Made by a program: the position numbers and the translations under genes. From a virus, in IMG/VR virus record IMGVR_UViG_3300021379_000628, positions 1 to 62,696 of that record: DNA of 62,696 nucleotides. One strand, written 5' to 3'. Numbering within the stretch: position 1 is the stretch's first letter; every line of letters starts with the position of its first letter. Below, one piece after another: positions 19,988 through 39,195 of this stretch. The notes beneath the pieces are model-generated. The model made no database searches. It was not told the DNA's origin and worked only from the letters and a program-made list of their open reading frames with translations.

Positions 19988-20247
19988 AAAACAACTACAA
20001 CGTCGTGATTTGTAATAACATGATAAACTTCTTTATCAATCTCTAATCTGTGAGCGTGTGTTCTATCGAAATAAACGGTATCACCTTCTTTAATACCTTG
20101 AACGTCACTACCACAGTTTAGAACTTTAGCTTGTTTATATCTAACATCAACTCTTTGTGAGTTAGCAAGCATAAGACCTCCATCAGTTTTTTTGATGTTA
20201 TCTTCTTTTTCTATTTCTATAACTATATTTCTACCTATTGCTTTCAT
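19984..20247 (-). CDS. groES: Co-chaperonin GroES
   Basis: An 87-residue cpn10 protein beginning [13 protein letters not shown]. It caps the GroEL ring. Residues 17-32 (NIKKTDGGLMLANSQR) are the mobile loop, with the hydrophobic contact LML in place of the usual IVL. IKEGDTVYFDRTHAHRLEID is the roof-proximal strand pair. The reading frame is open upstream through GTG and TTG codons, but ATG at 20247 gives the family's normal start. It overlaps the end of groEL by 17 bases, the reverse of the usual bacterial groES-groEL order. Confidence 0.9.
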   Translation of the reverse strand: MKAIGRNIVIEIEKEDNIKKTDGGLMLANSQRVDVRYKQAKVLNCGSDVQGIKEGDTVYFDRTHAHRLEIDKEVYHVITNHDVVVVL

Positions 20248-21787
20248 CACCAACTCTTAAATTATTGATTACACAATCTGTAGATAAAATAGTAGTAGCT
20301 ACTGAAGCCGCGTTTCTAAGTGCGCTTTTAGTTACTAACAGTGGGTCAATGATTCCGTTTTTAACCATATTGACAAACTTACCTGTAATAACATCAACGC
20401 CATAACCAGTTTTGGGCGTACCATCGTTCTCAAGTCCAGCATTTTTAAGTATAGTATTAAATGGTGCCTTTATTGCTTCAAGTAGTATTTCTTCACCAAC
20501 ACTTTTAGCTTTAATCTTTTTAGAAGCATCAAAAAGCGCTATACCACCACCAGAAACTATACCTTCTTTTACCGCGGCTTTAGTAGCACAGATAGCATCT
20601 TCAACTCTATCTGCTTTCTCTTTTAATTCAATTTCTGAGTTTGCTCCAACTTTTACCACTGCAACTTTAGCAGATAGTCTAGCTAAACGTTTTTCTAATC
20701 TGATTACCTCACCTGGAGACTTAGCTTTATCAAGTTGTTCTTTAACACTTTCTATTAAAGCTTTAACTTGCTCTGTGTCGGTATCAACTTGTATAATTGT
20801 TGATTCGTTATTTGTTGTTGCTTTATCACAGTGACCTAAAAACTCAGGGCGTATAACATCTAAATCATCACCTAAATCTTCGTTGATAACTGTAGCACCT
20901 GTTAAAACAGCAAGATCACTCAGTGTATCTTTTTTGTTAATACCATATACAGGGGCTTCAACAACGTTAACTTTTAAGTTACCTTTAGCTTTATTCATTG
21001 CTAGCGTAGCTAATACTGGCTGTTCTAAATCACCAATAATAAGTAAAGGTTTCTTTTCTTTTATAACGTACTCAAGTACGCTTTGTATTTTTCTAACTGA
21101 TTCAACTCTTGATTCTAATATGAGTACAAGAGCATTTTCTAGTTCAGCTACATTCTTTTCGATGTTTGTAATAAAGTGTGGATTAGATAATCCTTTATCA
21201 TATTCAACACCATCTACAAGCTCAAAATAAGTTTTATCATCTTGAGTTGATTCCATTGTAACAACACCGTTTTCACCTACAGTTCTAAAAGCTTTGCCAA
21301 TTATGCTACCAAGCTCTTCATCGTTATTACAACTAATTGTAGCAACATCATTCAGCATTGTACCTTCAACAGGTATACTAACTTTCTGTAGATAATTTAT
21401 AGTTTTTTCTACAGCTGAATTAATGCCATTTTTAATATTTCTCGGATTATCTTCTTTAGATCTTTTGTAGGCTTCTGTTAAAATTGAGTGCGCTAGCACT
21501 GTAGCCGTTGTTGTTCCATCGCCAGCTTCTTTTACAGTTTTCCTAGCTGCTTCCTTTAAAAGCGTTGCACCCATGTTTTCTACAGGATCTAAAAGTATAA
21601 CCGAGTCAGCAACCGTTACACCATCTTTAGTGATAACAGGTTTTCCTTGATCATTTTCTAAGATTACACATTGACCGCTAGCCCCAAGTGTGGAGCTAAC
21701 GGCTTTTGTGAGTTTTTGTATTCCTTCAAATACTTTGTCTCTGGCTTCGTCGCCAAAGTTTAAATTCTTAACAATTGCGTCAGACAT
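20231..21787 (-). CDS. groEL: Chaperonin GroEL
   Basis: A 518-residue group I chaperonin that folds proteins in an ATP-driven ring. ITKDGVTVA (residues 53-61) and [10 protein letters not shown] (89-98) form the nucleotide site. [15 protein letters not shown] (395-409) carries the Asp equivalent to catalytic Asp398 of E. coli. SGGGIALF follows. The apical domain lies at about 185-370. The C-terminus ends [11 protein letters not shown], without the Gly-Gly-Met tail, so it is about 30 residues shorter than E. coli GroEL. It is co-transcribed with groES in the virion gene block, which suggests help in folding capsid or tail proteins. Confidence 0.95.
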
Positions 21788-27991: not shown

Positions 27992-29056
27992 TTATGCGTT
28001 TTCTAAGGCTTCGATTCTAGCGATAGCTTCTTGTAGAGCTGCAGTAAGTAGTGGGACTAGTTTAGATTTGTCAATGCCTTGATAAATAGCTTCGCCGCTA
28101 TCGTTTACTTCATCTTTCGTTCCTGTTACAGCCTCTGGCACGACACTCTGCACTTCGTGAGCAATAAATCCGTCAACAGTGTTGCTATCTCCTATGAAAT
28201 TAAATCTACTTGGGTTTAGTTGTTTTACTTTATCTATTGCACCAGTGATTCCTACTATATTTTCTTTTAAACGGTAGTCAGAGGTTTCGTTATATGCAGT
28301 ACCAGTACCACTCAAGGATATAGTTCCTTTTGTCACATTAGCTATTTGGAAGCGTATAGCTACGTCACTGTTTTGCTGATTAATTATAAAACTGTCATTA
28401 GAATCAGATTCATTGTTTTCTAAATATAACGCTGGAGCAGATTCATATATAGCGTCTCTTACAATCTCCATTGTTGATCCAGTGTGTACAATGCTAGTAC
28501 TATTTACCAACACTTGGTTGTAAAGACCCTCTATGTATATTGGTGAATCAGCTAATGCTGTTGAGCTACTCATTTTAGGAATATACTGAGCGCTTGATGT
28601 GCTTGTAACTGTACCTGTTCCAGCCCCGATGTCACTTCGTAATTGTGTACCGGTTCTATATTTAATAACACCAGAATCTAGTACAGCGAACTTATCTGTA
28701 TCAACCGTAGCAGCAGTCTCTGGTATTGTAACATCACCTGTAACACCTAAAGTTCCACCCACCGTAGCATTTGAAGTAACAGCTAGTGTAACACCTGAAG
28801 ATACTGTCAAAGATGTTGGGGCTGAAGTACTATCTTGTTTTAACACTGAATCTACAGTATGTGTAGCCGTGTCATACACTGGAATATATGTCGCTGTACC
28901 ATCGTGAAGGCTTGTGTAAATAGCGTCACGCAGTGTCTCGAAAGTTATTGAGTTAGTCTGAAATGCTCCTACGCCTGCAGAAGGCGCCACACTTAAGACA
29001 AACTGGTCTGTTGTTTTGACCGTTTCTGTTATAGGGTAAGAGTATAATATAGCCAT
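27992..29056 (-). CDS. Tail fibre with S74 intramolecular chaperone (first gene of late arm)
   Basis: A 354-residue fibre and the promoter-proximal gene of the minus-strand arm. Residues 75-150 hold the module PETAATVDTDKFAVLDSGVI then KYRTGTQLRSDIGA, which is repeated in the 1063-residue fibre. From about residue 255 (SDYRLKENIVGITGAIDKVK, then FNFIGDSNTVDGFIAHEVQS) it is a peptidase S74 chaperone. The last 25 residues are a coiled coil. The N-terminus (YSYPITETVKTTDQFVLS) may be the virion-binding part. The ATG at 29056 opens onto the divergent control region. Confidence 0.85.
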   Translation of the reverse strand: MAILYSYPITETVKTTDQFVLSVAPSAGVGAFQTNSITFETLRDAIYTSLHDGTATYIPVYDTATHTVDSVLKQDSTSAPTSLTVSSGVTLAVTSNATVGGTLGVTGDVTIPETAATVDTDKFAVLDSGVIKYRTGTQLRSDIGAGTGTVTSTSSAQYIPKMSSSTALADSPIYIEGLYNQVLVNSTSIVHTGSTMEIVRDAIYESAPALYLENNESDSNDSFIINQQNSDVAIRFQIANVTKGTISLSGTGTAYNETSDYRLKENIVGITGAIDKVKQLNPSRFNFIGDSNTVDGFIAHEVQSVVPEAVTGTKDEVNDSGEAIYQGIDKSKLVPLLTAALQEAIARIEALENA

Positions 29057-29587: not shown

Positions 29588-29818
29588 ATGCAAAATTCAA
29601 TTCAATCAAAACGCTTTGTTATTCGTCAATCTCTCGTAGGCCAAAATCAAATCATTGAAGTCACTTTCAAAAATGGCAAAACTTTCAAATATAATCATGA
29701 CAAAGCATTTGAACTAATGAAGTCAAATCTTGAAAAACTAAACTGTTTTCAAAAATATAAATCATACACTTCATCTACTTCAATTCCAAAAGTATTACAA
29801 AATGCTGAAGTTATCTAA
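29588..29818 (+). CDS. Early small protein (76 aa)
   Basis: A 76-residue protein of unknown function and the first substantial gene of the early arm. A beta-hairpin-like centre (QIIEVTFKNGKTFKYNHDKA) is followed by a helix (FELMKSNLEKLNCFQKY) and a Ser/Thr-rich end. Its position behind two promoter-like elements suggests immediate-early expression and perhaps host takeover, which is inference only. Confidence 0.65.
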   Translation: MQNSIQSKRFVIRQSLVGQNQIIEVTFKNGKTFKYNHDKAFELMKSNLEKLNCFQKYKSYTSSTSIPKVLQNAEVI

Positions 29819-29886
29819 TCAATAACTTTATTACAAAAGTGGGCGTTGAAATGTGTTCTCTCCACTATAAATAAAGTTGAACAGAT

Positions 29887-29928
29887 TAGTCACAATGGTT
29901 AATAGTGGTTCGATTCCACTCGTGACTA
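29887..29928 (+). ncRNA. Mini tRNA-like element (acceptor stem plus T-arm only)
   Basis: TAGTCAC (29887-29893) pairs perfectly with GTGACTA (29922-29928). Inside lies ATGGTTAAT, which resembles a D-loop with its GG, then a perfect T-arm AGTGG-TTCGATT-CCACT. There is no anticodon arm. The sequence continues CTA rather than CCA. About 45 bases upstream, GGGCGTTGAAATG (29841-29853) resembles the 5' end of the two larger tRNA-like RNAs at 31853 and 33441, so the element may be a degenerate relative. Confidence 0.4.
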
Positions 29929-29943
29929 CTAATACAAATAATT

Positions 29944-30099
29944 ATGAGAAAGTTTCAACACACAAATCTACTTGAAGTAGTATTAAAACTCTACGCCTTT
30001 TCACTCGCTGGTTTATCAGTAATTGGAGCGTTATCACTAATAATTGGTTTAGTAACAGGCGAAATAGTAGTACCAGAATCCGCTTTCGGTACTTACTAA
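29944..30099 (+). CDS. Small membrane protein (51 aa)
   Basis: An ATG at 29944 opens 51 codons. The protein has a basic N-terminus (MRKFQHTNLL) and one hydrophobic segment (residues about 14-39: KLYAFSLAGLSVIGALSLII), and ends PESAFGTY. It is probably an inner-membrane peptide made early in infection. The function is unknown. Confidence 0.55.
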   Translation: MRKFQHTNLLEVVLKLYAFSLAGLSVIGALSLIIGLVTGEIVVPESAFGTY

Positions 30100-30540: not shown

Positions 30541-30744
30541 ATGGGATACAAAAGACTTTACTGTAATGAAGAAACAATTGACACGCTCGTTGAAGTAGCA
30601 AAGCAAGACGGGTGGGATGTAATGGTGAAAGATGCTTTCATGATAGTCGAGAAATTCGCTGACTATGAAAATATGGAAGACAGATTTAACCAAACTAGAT
30701 CACTAATAAGTGAAGTTGGTTACAAGATTACAAACAAAATATAA
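30541..30744 (+). CDS. Early hypothetical protein (67 aa)
   Basis: A 67-residue acidic protein with an alpha/beta pattern (ETIDTLVEVAKQDGWDVMVK). Its last codons (ITNKI) and stop lie inside promoter-like copy 4, so the end of the gene is shared with the next gene's control element. The function is unknown. Confidence 0.6.
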   Translation: MGYKRLYCNEETIDTLVEVAKQDGWDVMVKDAFMIVEKFADYENMEDRFNQTRSLISEVGYKITNKI

Positions 30745-31630: not shown

Positions 31631-31819
31631 ATGTATTGTAGATGCGGAAAATCTGTGCACCCTGTGCGAATAAATTTAGGTTACAAAAGTTGTGTAGACT
31701 GTTCAACTATGCAGACTTATAGTTATGTACCTATCATTGAGCATAAGACAGGCAATACTATTCAAATCGTTAGCCAAGAAGTATCAGCAAGTGTTCACAG
31801 AGCTTGGCGGCGTAAGTAG
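31631..31819 (+). CDS. Small zinc-ribbon-like protein (62 aa)
   Basis: A 62-residue protein with Cys at residues 3 and 5 (MYCRCGKSV) and a CVDC pair at about 22-25. This is a four-Cys arrangement able to bind zinc. The remainder is beta-rich and ends in a basic WRRK. It lies behind promoter-like copy 5 and ahead of a tRNA-like RNA. The function is unknown. Confidence 0.6.
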   Translation: MYCRCGKSVHPVRINLGYKSCVDCSTMQTYSYVPIIEHKTGNTIQIVSQEVSASVHRAWRRK

Positions 31820-31852
31820 CTGGAAGGTGCTGCTGTTAGCGGCAGGCTACTA

Positions 31853-31945
31853 GGGCGTGAAATGGTTGGCGAGACAGTATCTGTGAGGCGTGTAAGACCT
31901 CTAACGACAGTATCTCAAACGCAGGTTCGATTCCTGCCACGTCCA
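31853..31945 (+). ncRNA. tRNA/tmRNA-like RNA, copy A (about 93 nt)
   Basis: GGGCGTG (31853-31859) pairs over seven bases with CACGTCC (31938-31944, one G-U). AATGGTT follows as a D-loop-like stretch without a D-stem. A perfect T-arm GCAGG-TTCGATT-CCTGC lies at 31921-31937, directly joined to the 3' strand, followed by A and CTA (not CCA). The centre has a GAGA/TCTC helix and a GAGG/CCTC hairpin whose loop contains TGTAA. No normal D or anticodon arm forms. The 5' and 3' ends resemble a tmRNA tRNA-like domain. Confidence 0.55.
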
Positions 31946-31960
31946 CTAAAATTATAAAAT

Positions 31961-32215
31961 ATGAGTGAAATGAAAACACTTTACGAAAGGTTAAAGCCTG
32001 AAATTAAAGACAAACTATTGCAACAAGACAGAAAGTACAGTGAAAGTGTTCGTAACATTATCGCTAAACTTGACAGTAACAAGTTTGTTTCTGAATTAAC
32101 GCTAAGTGATGTTAGAAATATTCATATATTTTCTGACACTGACTACATGGACCAATCCGCTTACGAGCTAATGTGGTGTGAAAAATTATTTGAAGATGAC
32201 AAAGGAAACGATTAA
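31961..32215 (+). CDS. Early hypothetical protein (84 aa)
   Basis: An 84-residue charged helical protein (MKTLYERLKPEIKDKLLQQD; SVRNIIAKLDSNKFVSELTL) ending in an acidic tail. It begins 15 bases after the tRNA-like RNA. No family is recognised. Confidence 0.6.
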   Translation: MSEMKTLYERLKPEIKDKLLQQDRKYSESVRNIIAKLDSNKFVSELTLSDVRNIHIFSDTDYMDQSAYELMWCEKLFEDDKGND

Positions 32216-32444
32216 ATTACGAGCGCATGATAAGGCAATGGCACAAATCCATGCTAATCAATTGAAAGTCAGAAAGTTAAAGTATGATGTGGAAAGAGAA
32301 AACACAGGTGTTATAACTATGCATGAGTTAGAGATCTGTTTAGAGTCAGCTAAACGAGAACTTGAAACTTGGAATTATATAATGAAACTAATAGAATTAG
32401 ACTATGGAAAACACGATTACGCTGATGAAATACTTGGGCATTGA
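32196..32444 (+). CDS. Early hypothetical helical protein (82 aa)
   Basis: An 82-residue protein, mostly helix (TKETIKLRAHDKAMAQIHAN; ELEICLESAKRELETWNYIM). ATG at 32196 is preferred; a GTG at 32178 would add six residues. It overlaps the preceding gene by 20 bases and the following one by 41 bases. The function is unknown. Confidence 0.6.
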   Translation: MTKETIKLRAHDKAMAQIHANQLKVRKLKYDVERENTGVITMHELEICLESAKRELETWNYIMKLIELDYGKHDYADEILGH

Positions 32445-32757
32445 AGAGATTACAACGCCTAAACAAAAGTTAAATGGTACTAGAAATTTTGCTTTACCTT
32501 ATTATATAAGAGGTAAGCGGGTGACAATAGCCTCTTATCAAACGGGTTATGTTAGAATTGACAGAAACTGTCATAGTGCTTATCAAGTAAATCCTACATA
32601 CAAAGTACCTTACAAAGTAATTGGTAGAGATGGTAAACTTAGAACTTGGACAAGTACAAAACGCATAATGATATACGGAGAAGAAAGTCGTATTGATTTT
32701 ATATTTAACTACGTATTAAAAAACTTTTATAAAAAACAATGGAAAACAATAAACTAA
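32404..32757 (+). CDS. Early hypothetical protein (117 aa)
   Basis: A 117-residue basic, beta-rich protein (RNFALPYYIRGKRVTIASYQ; YKVIGRDGKLRTWTSTKRIM). It may bind nucleic acid. Its coding sequence contains an exact 13-base copy (32521-32533) of the left arm of the operator-like repeat at 29128. It overlaps both neighbours. No family is recognised. Confidence 0.6.
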   Translation: MENTITLMKYLGIEEITTPKQKLNGTRNFALPYYIRGKRVTIASYQTGYVRIDRNCHSAYQVNPTYKVPYKVIGRDGKLRTWTSTKRIMIYGEESRIDFIFNYVLKNFYKKQWKTIN

Positions 32758-33209
32758 CTCAAGAATTACTTGAGCGATTATTAGCTGAAGATGGTGTGAC
32801 TGTAGCTGAAGATACAAGCTTTGCAGACATGTTAAGTAAAGCAAGTAATCATTTTGACTTTAAAATTACAGACGAGTGGAATGCTAACACAACATATTTT
32901 TTCTATACAGAGACAACTGCTGACGGATATGAGGTGTGGGTTGCCACCGATGATGACCAAAAACCTAGTATAAATGATGATATTTATTACTATGAAAGTG
33001 ATTGGCTTGAAAAAATGCAAGATGCTATGACAGATGGTAATAACATTTACTTTCAAGAACTGAATGATGAAAACCCCAACTTTGAAGAGGTTATCTTAAA
33101 TGTTTATGAAGAATATTATAACGATAAAAAACAAGAACTAGAAGAAAAATTAATTGATGATGGTTACGAATACGAAAACGAAGATGAAGCCGTTACCGAA
33201 GTGGTTTAA
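32739..33209 (+). CDS. Early acidic protein (156 aa)
   Basis: A 156-residue very acidic protein (Glu/Asp-rich throughout; ELEEKLIDDGYEYENEDEAV at the end). The middle is beta-rich with aromatic residues (TTYFFYTETTADGYEVWVAT). Acidic early phage proteins are often DNA mimics or inhibitors, but nothing specific supports that here. It overlaps neighbours on both sides. Confidence 0.6.
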   Translation: MENNKLTQELLERLLAEDGVTVAEDTSFADMLSKASNHFDFKITDEWNANTTYFFYTETTADGYEVWVATDDDQKPSINDDIYYYESDWLEKMQDAMTDGNNIYFQELNDENPNFEEVILNVYEEYYNDKKQELEEKLIDDGYEYENEDEAVTEVV

Positions 33210-33432
33210 TGGTGAAGTGTACCCAAAAGGTGATACAGTAAAAAACATATTTACAGGTATGCCAGCAGAGTTAAATGCTAATGAGCTTAGTATGTATGAC
33301 TTTATTATGGGTTGCAACATGATACTAGAACGTACTAATTTTGCATCTCAAAAGCTAATAAATGAAATGCGTAAAGGTATTGACTGGTTTAGATCAGCTA
33401 ATCCTTCAGCGTATATGACACTATTAGATTAG
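33184..33432 (+). CDS. Conserved small phage protein (82 aa)
   Basis: An 82-residue protein starting MKPLPKWFNGEVYPKGDTV, followed by FTGMPAELNANELSMYDFIM and WFRSANPSAYMTLLD. I recognise this WFNG...ELxxxELSMYDFI pattern from many phages of diverse hosts, without a known function. ATG at 33184 gives the family start; an in-frame ATG at 33154 would add ten atypical residues. It overlaps the preceding gene by 26 bases. Confidence 0.7.
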   Translation: MKPLPKWFNGEVYPKGDTVKNIFTGMPAELNANELSMYDFIMGCNMILERTNFASQKLINEMRKGIDWFRSANPSAYMTLLD

Positions 33433-33440
33433 TGTCTACT

Positions 33441-33543
33441 GGGCGTGAAATGGTTAGACAAATTGGGGAGGCGATGTAACTTCGTTCAGAAGTGAGCCCA
33501 CAGTGAACAATTTGTAACGCGGGTTCGAATCCCGCCGCGTCCA
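33441..33543 (+). ncRNA. tRNA/tmRNA-like RNA, copy B (about 103 nt)
   Basis: GGGCGTG (33441-33447) pairs with CGCGTCC (33536-33542, two G-U). AATGGTTAGACA follows, similar to the TGGTTxxGACA of tmRNA 5' ends. ACAAATTG and CAATTTGT make a perfect eight-pair helix that encloses GAGG/CTTC and GTTCA/TGAAC hairpins. A perfect T-arm GCGGG-TTCGAAT-CCCGC adjoins the 3' acceptor strand, followed by A and CTA. The layout of acceptor, stemless D-loop, long helix and T-arm is that of a tmRNA tRNA-like domain, with no room for a normal tag frame. Confidence 0.6.
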
Positions 33544-33564
33544 CTAACTTTAAAATTAATTATT

Positions 33565-33759
33565 ATGCCTAACATGAGTTATTGCCGTTTCGAAAACACG
33601 GTGAATGATATGCAAGATTGTTTAAACGCTATTGAAGAACGTGATACAAGCGAGCTAAGCAATTATGAGGTTCGAGCTCTTAAAGAGTTTTTAGAACTAG
33701 GACGTACTATTATAGAGTTTGAAAATGAAATCGAAGAAATACTAGAAGAATATGAATAG
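33565..33759 (+). CDS. Conserved small phage protein (64 aa)
   Basis: A 64-residue protein starting MPNMSYCRFENTVNDMQDCL and continuing as an acidic helix (EFLELGRTIIEFENEIEEIL). The MPNMSYCRFENT start is a widely recurring signature of a small phage family with no known function. It overlaps the next gene by eight bases. Confidence 0.75.
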   Translation: MPNMSYCRFENTVNDMQDCLNAIEERDTSELSNYEVRALKEFLELGRTIIEFENEIEEILEEYE

Positions 33760-38285: not shown

Positions 38286-38437
38286 ATTATCCAAACCCAG
38301 ACAAACACTTTTGGGCTAGCGTGACAAAGAGTGTTATAAGAGTAGTAGGCTATTGTCTCATACCTTTTAACTTAGAATTTGCTGTAGGAATATTAATAGC
38401 AAGCGAGGTTATAGGTGTATTAGAAGAACTAGTATGA
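38282..38437 (+). CDS. Small membrane protein (51 aa)
   Basis: A 51-residue protein starting MNYPNPDKHFWASVTKSVIR, with one hydrophobic stretch (residues about 19-45: VIRVVGYCLIPFNLEFAVGI). ATGA overlaps with both neighbours support translation. The function is unknown. Confidence 0.6.
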   Translation: MNYPNPDKHFWASVTKSVIRVVGYCLIPFNLEFAVGILIASEVIGVLEELV

Positions 38438-39195
38438 AGAAATATAACGTACAAAACTACGTAAGATTTAAGAACGACTTGAAGCAGTCAATAAATGCTA
38501 TACACACTAAGCACTTCTTAGACTATACGCGTGATGAATTAATTGTAAAGTTTATTCCACTTGTGGAAAATCTTGCTCGTAAATTTTCAACATCACAACA
38601 AGCATCTGGTGTGTTAAGTATAAACGATTTGATTCAAGATGGTTGCGAAGGTCTTATAAAAGCTGTAGATAAGTTAGAGTATAGTACTCTCTCTGATTCA
38701 GATGACATAGAAAAAACATTAAAGTCTTTCTTTTCAAAACGCATCAAAGGCGCTATTCGTAGACGTATCGATGCGGCTAGAGGTGATATGCGTATACCAG
38801 AACATAAAATGAATGAGATACGTAAAAACCCTAAAGATAAGAAAATGGTTGAAATGTTTTTTAACTCTATGTTTTTATCTATCGATGCTCAGCCTTCAAA
38901 TGATGAAGGCGAAACGATGATACATCAGATACAAGATAAGTCTGAGCCATATAACATAGCTCTACTTAATATGTATCTAAAAAGCTTATTACAAAAGCAT
39001 CTAAATGAAAAAGAATATCAGGTGTTACGTTTAAGCTATGGACTAGACTGCGACAAGCATTCAGCTAAACAAATCGCGGATATTTTAGACATTGAAGGTA
39101 CAAGTAATTATGTGCGTGTAAGTGAGCTAAAAAAGCAAGCAGTGCAGAAATTAATAGACAGCGTTGATCACTCACAAGTGATTGATTATCTATAG
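38434..39195 (+). CDS. RNA polymerase sigma factor (sigma-70 family)
   Basis: A 253-residue sigma factor. Residues 40-75 (IPLVENLARKFSTSQQASGV then SINDLIQDGCEGLIKAVDKL) are region 2, which binds core polymerase and the -10 box. Residues about 195-240 (LNEKEYQVLRLSYGLDCDKH then AKQIADILDIEG) are region 4, with an HTH for -35 contact. The central part is shortened compared with housekeeping sigma. It would redirect host RNA polymerase, probably to late genes, since no phage polymerase is present. It overlaps the preceding gene by four bases. Confidence 0.9.
   Translation: MKKYNVQNYVRFKNDLKQSINAIHTKHFLDYTRDELIVKFIPLVENLARKFSTSQQASGVLSINDLIQDGCEGLIKAVDKLEYSTLSDSDDIEKTLKSFFSKRIKGAIRRRIDAARGDMRIPEHKMNEIRKNPKDKKMVEMFFNSMFLSIDAQPSNDEGETMIHQIQDKSEPYNIALLNMYLKSLLQKHLNEKEYQVLRLSYGLDCDKHSAKQIADILDIEGTSNYVRVSELKKQAVQKLIDSVDHSQVIDYL

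Follow-up and report, generated by a model that had tools for sequence, protein, structure and literature searches.

Three stripped-down tRNA-like RNA elements lie between early genes of a marine flavobacterial phage, all on the + strand of the window, that is, the whole 62,696 nt stretch of DNA analysed. These are element C (29888-29931, a 44 nt type II minihelix), missed by the initial annotation, and the type Ia elements A (31853-31948) and B (33441-33546). Each follows a + strand ORF whose orthologues define the corresponding site in related phages (29588-29818 for site C; 31631-31819, 62 aa starting MYCRCG, for site A; 33154-33432 for site B, where genuine tRNA genes follow the orthologues in several relatives) and precedes another + strand ORF that starts 12 nt past C (29944-30099), 12 nt past A (31961-32215) or 18 nt past B (33565-33759). 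Between the upstream ORF and A, a short hairpin-like stretch (31820-31852, + strand) can be read from the sequence as part of a site-A RNA island. A candidate phage promoter, the motif TGGATAATATA(AT), is repeated upstream of early ORFs (29395, 29537, 30125, 30753 and 31601). The start of the 33565-33759 ORF has 84% DNA identity over 55 nt to a hypothetical gene of large Klebsiella phages. The phage also encodes a sigma-70-like protein (38434-39195) and a GroEL (phrog_5725, 20231-21787), the latter also present in related flavobacterial phages.

Elements A and B, first proposed as two paralogous tRNA-like RNAs, are indeed present at those places, with exact ends at 31948 and 33546 when the final ACTA is counted in. 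Both start with GGGCGTGAAATGGTT and have a 7-bp acceptor (31853-31859/31938-31944 in A; 33441-33447/33536-33542 in B) whose third pair is G.U (G3.U70), followed by AAATGGTT, the elbow of A, with its GG. A 5-bp T-arm with the loop TTCGANT (31921-31937 in A; 33519-33535 in B) leads to the discriminator A plus CTA (31945-31948 in A; ACTA at 33543-33546 in B). The D-stem is absent, and a single helix, P2, replaces both the D and anticodon arms: in A it begins with GAGA (31871-31874) paired to TCTC (31913-31916), and in B it comprises 8 bp, ACAAATTG (33458-33465) and CAATTTGT (33508-33515). The initial description was correct on the 5′ sequence, the acceptor, the T-arm, the absence of a D-stem and the helix of 8 bp in B. 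The internal GAGGCG(A)TGTAA, also pointed out at the time, is common to A and B but absent from the other 36 distinct copies. A tyrosine-anticodon mimic, suggested from the T-GTA-A loop, is rejected because this loop is not conserved beyond A and B and sits in an interior that is a swappable module.

Standard tools largely pass over these loci. ARAGORN reports no gene in the whole window, so that a cloverleaf complete with D arm and anticodon arm is absent, and no Rfam family reaches its curated threshold there. With an E-value threshold instead, B matches the Rfam tmRNA model at 38.9 bits (E=1.5e-13) and A gives a weak, truncated match of 15 bits. Searching phages with A by blastn returned matches of T-arm length only. 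Since single-sequence folding is weak (z of -1.1 and -1.7 for A and B), the case for the elements rests on covariation.

A scan of IMG/VR with the 15-mer GGGCGTGAAATGGTT alone retrieved 75 stretches, about 41 of them with a complete short element (type Ia, 38 distinct sequences). The roughly 40 copies belong to one lineage of ~60-kb marine flavobacterial podoviruses with TerL 66-84% identical; 27 of 28 tested contigs have a TerL 71-83% identical to that of the window, and the same holds at 66-84% for 25 of 28 contigs found via types II or III. The nearest named relatives are, at 63%, a Manatee Spring genome, then the Flavobacterium elemoviruses (46%) and podoviruses of Cellulophaga and Tenacibaculum (32-40%). 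An acceptor-relaxed pattern with the first bases dropped added no new loci in IMG/VR, and the 15-mer scan of genome contigs gave no tmRNA or short element among the matches listed, a result of little weight. A type I search of 397 Flavobacteriaceae species genomes found none, its three matches being ordinary tRNAs. Origin from a present-day flavobacterial host gene was considered and rejected, given that those 397 genomes yielded ordinary tRNAs only and that the single Mangrovimonas tmRNA examined differs in the acceptor 3′ strand. Three others of the 75 stretches, on viral contigs, are tmRNA-like genes of full length (about 290 nt) that share the type Ia acceptor (L036 at 7825, L053 at 2849 and L071 at 5669) and are possible donors of the frame.

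Compensatory changes in homologues, which the initial annotation had named as its own refutation check, were found. Across 28 distinct type Ia frames the acceptor, elbow and T-arm are nearly invariant, with G3.U70 in 28 of 28, A and B included. All five P2 pairs vary on both sides and covary while 96.4% of cells remain paired, with 62 double-change cells (18 in shuffles) and a covariation of 0.328 (0.080 in shuffles). As the 15-mer alone led to some 41 complete copies, and P2 covaries, we conclude that the elements are not chance. The suggestion of a new phage RNA class holds in the sense that the elements fall outside all Rfam families and form one covarying family in one phage lineage; in an Rfam scan of 135 kb of relatives, genuine tRNAs were the only known RNAs.

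Searching with a family model uncovered divergent frames: Ib (GGGAGTG/CACTTCC), Ic (GGGGGTG/CACCTCC), Id (AGGCGTG/CACGCCT) and Ie (GGACGTG/CACGTCC). G3.U70 is retained in Ia, Ib and Ic despite the changed pair 4:69, whereas Id and Ie have lost it. Yet another frame, type IV (AACTAGG...GAGGTTCGAATCCTCACTAGTTAC), occurs at site A of L051, L033, L021, L029 and L050 and is another tRNA top half with a swappable interior.

Element C consists of acceptor and T-arm only: AGTCAC (29888-29893) pairs with GTGACT (29922-29927) around ATGGTTAAT and a T-arm at 29904-29920, and ACTA follows at 29928-29931. Just 5′ of it, a stem-loop module on the + strand (29824-29878), again a reading of the bare sequence, has an outer stem of AACTTTATT (29824-29832) and AATAAAGTT (29870-29878) and an inner stem of AGTGG (29838-29842) and CCACT (29862-29866); comparable sequence lies ahead of elements in L074, L031, L059 and L067. 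With the C core as query and the acceptor left out, the type II scan returned 16 distinct contexts. Their acceptor pairs are standard in 96 of 96 cases, against a mean of 61 and a maximum of 78 in 2000 shuffles, and because they use ten different acceptor strands no single synthetase identity is kept. Nothing is present in type II beyond the features of a tRNA top half.

These regularities bear on whether the loci are simply mobile or recombination elements at the DNA level, with no role as RNA. Frames and modules are exchanged as a mosaic among relatives, as such elements would be, but stems are preserved by compensatory changes, the invariant G.U would be a mismatch in a DNA hairpin on either strand, and a near-identical frame contrasts with a TerL diverged to 66-84% identity; we regard this explanation as hardly credible.

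The likeness to tmRNA in its tRNA-like domain, noticed from the outset, is supported. Besides B, another six type Ia elements reach 35.1-40.4 bits with the Rfam tmRNA model, which is their best family of the tRNA clan and beats the tRNA model, whereas in four bacterial genomes no match outside a tmRNA gene exceeds 27.9 bits; B and these six stay below the curated tmRNA score of 47 bits. The features of that domain are present (elbow, acceptor, T-arm, absent D-stem and a P2 helix that links both halves and covaries in the 28 frames), as are the alanine-identity features G3.U70 and A73 in both A and B. The pseudoknot-rich message domain is absent, with interiors of 33-108 nt. No normal tag frame had been seen in the initial annotation, and the interiors agree: GCN-to-stop frames of at least 8 codons occur in 9 of 38 interiors and are no commoner than in shuffles (23%), with no resume codon or tag, and a hidden tag peptide is rejected for want of any excess over shuffles. 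A and B are not classed as tmRNAs since two defining features, both tested, are missing. By build they are the tRNA-like domain of tmRNA without its message, and they likely descend from tmRNA.

Type I elements might on this basis act as tag-less tmRNAs which, charged with alanine and bound by SmpB, would enter stalled ribosomes and rescue or block them without a tag. We consider this improbable. The best Rfam match is tmRNA (35-40 bits), pair 4:69 varies among Ia, Ib and Ic although all three retain G3.U70 and A73, and the jakobid mitochondrial tmRNAs with a lost message region offer a precedent; on the other hand, message, resume codon and tag are all absent, G3.U70 is gone in Id and Ie, and the type II elements and genuine tRNAs found at the same sites are left unexplained.

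The position of the elements is as regular as their structure. A same-strand ORF lies 3′ of the type Ia copy in 41 of 42 cases, the remaining copy being at a contig end. In 25 of 41 type Ia copies, 10-19 nt separate ACTA from the following ATG, and four copies contain ACTATGG, where the start codon overlaps the element end; element 3′ ends usually lie 10-24 nt before the next ATG. Such a fixed spacing could suggest a cis-regulatory leader, in which a tRNA mimic, bound by a tRNA-binding protein, would regulate the gene that follows, yet the genes downstream vary from copy to copy and genuine tRNAs substitute for the element, which makes this reading quite improbable.

To avoid locus-retrieval bias, the three sites were surveyed in contigs picked by a criterion independent of the site tested. 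Of 29 orthologues at site C, 12 are followed by an element (types II and III among others), rising to 11 of 13 when orthologues are at least 55% identical. At site A 12 of the 19 orthologues have one (a tRNA or type Ia, Ib, Ic, Id/e or IV), and at site B 8 of the 18 do (one Ia, one Id and six tRNAs), compared with 3.7% of random 420-nt windows of the surveyed contigs. At sites A and B genuine tRNAs swap with truncated elements at the same junction. What is conserved at the sites is the presence of some tRNA top half, whichever its type, located at the gene boundary and on the coding strand. In the cultured phage phi38:1 (KC821614), one operon contains a pair of identical, lone tRNA-Glu genes spaced 2 kb apart (28605-28676 and 30575-30646), which stand some 20-25 nt ahead of gp046 and gp050; each is followed by ACTAAT and an AT-rich leader, whereas its clustered tRNAs are without ACTAAT. 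In the Manatee Spring relative MW202828, a tRNA-Leu-like gene is followed by a second short tRNA-like element (about 523-690).

That genuine tRNAs and the elements take each other's place at these sites points to transcript processing, and the decoy or suppressor roles initially proposed for A and B are unsupported. We favour, tentatively and at slightly less than an even chance, the reading that A, B and C are tRNA-type processing marks, cut by RNase P and RNase Z as "punctuation" of an early polycistronic + strand transcript. The structure common to types I, II and III and genuine tRNAs is what RNase P and RNase Z recognise, and it is because all of them share it that punctuation is favoured. 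The host RNase P would cut at nucleotide 1 of the element and the host RNase Z, or an equivalent, 3′ of the discriminator base; these cuts would free the 3′ end of the upstream mRNA and give the downstream mRNA a short AU-rich leader starting with CUAA. The frame of A and B would be a tmRNA tRNA-like domain after loss of its message, in which P2 would join both ends and be capped by many different structured modules, and G3.U70 with A73 may let the host AlaRS charge them. tRNA punctuation is an established form of RNase P/Z processing of polycistronic transcripts in mitochondria (PMC4394434), where the tRNA-like t-elements are also established substrates of these enzymes (PMC4919922), and in bacteria pre-tmRNA and operon mRNAs are among the RNAs that RNase P processes (PMC4394434; PMC4919922).

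In favour of processing we count the covarying P2 (type Ia) and acceptor (type II), the placement 5′ of genes, the interchange at the three sites, the bare top half and varied acceptors of type II, and the lone tRNA-Glu genes of phi38:1. Several observations argue against it: the invariance of type Ia, together with G3.U70 in Ia, Ib and Ic, exceeds what RNase P and RNase Z need; tandem elements and tRNAs (L259, L014) are superfluous for punctuation; some orthologous sites are empty; and the recurrence of interior modules is unaccounted for.

Type I interiors are in fact non-random, as the same modules recur within frames and elsewhere in intergenic regions, capping stems of differing sequence. 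The module CAAAGTTCGAAAGTACACTA, for instance, sits on GCGAA/TTCGC within a type I element and, outside frames, on GTAGTTAA/TTAACTAC and on TAGCTAG/CTAGCTA. Modules can also be nested, a hairpin within one module of L033 giving way to a second module in L075 and to a third in L030. A module-flank shuffle test was convincing for M2 (2/1000) and M6 (12/1000) only, the others having few contexts. Recurrent structured modules without an Rfam match are found at L030 8533-8637, L033 4118-4245 and L075 685-836, in L029, L019 and L051, and in other intergenic regions.

Such modules bring to the fore the best rival, in which the excised RNA is itself the product: a stable, precisely ended tRNA-like scaffold displaying swappable modules that would act in trans (host-factor binding, decoys, counter-defence). 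The recurrence of modules in and outside frames on different compensated stems and their nesting, the tandem frames and those adjoining tRNAs, and the retention of P2 in every case all speak for it, while type II is too small for cargo and genuine tRNAs at the same sites are not predicted. We judge it unlikely overall, though not negligible; for type I, it and processing may both hold. It is likewise unlikely that the phages possess a modular RNA platform, in which a few tRNA-like frames, tag-less tmRNA domains among them, excised by host tRNA enzymes, would each carry one out of many swappable and nestable structured modules acting in trans, with counter-defence and host takeover as example roles and cassette-like shuffling between phages.

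If the elements do serve processing, tRNA punctuation as known from mitochondria would operate in a DNA phage, truncated and even tmRNA-derived elements would substitute for tRNAs, and the odd or duplicate tRNAs of phages, usually ascribed to codon usage, would have a new answer. The loci are also a natural, non-mitochondrial source of message-less tmRNA domains, and they bring to light shuffled RNA modules overlooked by annotation pipelines.

A search of the open-access literature returned no description of such elements, and several known systems invite comparison. The bacterial Y RNA YrlA is a non-coding RNA that joins a tRNA-like module to another structured part (PMC7790460), a layout that the elements share; they have no Rfam match, and a Pfam scan of 20 early-region proteins showed no Rsr/Ro60 domain. 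Phage tRNA genes occupy the same syntenic sites in the same 3′ context but, unlike A, B and C, have an anticodon arm. With tmRNA (ssrA, Rfam RF00023) type Ia elements share the G3.U70 acceptor, the elbow GG, P2 in place of the D and anticodon arms, the T-arm and the discriminator A, although they measure 77-152 nt rather than ~290-400 nt and lack message, pseudoknots and tag. The jakobid mitochondrial tmRNAs that Jacob and colleagues reportedly described in 2004 (cited in PMC6514570) kept the tRNA-like domain and lost the mRNA-like region, as here; the phage elements differ in belonging to a phage and in their several interchangeable frames, swappable P2 modules and conserved place before genes, and the likeness is one of description. 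Mitochondrial tRNA punctuation and t-elements likewise place tRNA or tRNA-like structures at the gene boundaries of polycistronic transcripts, whereas here the setting is a bacterial DNA phage, many truncated types interchange and cleavage is putative. Message-less tmRNAs and t-elements are thus already known in mitochondria, and the phage elements are a variant of those.
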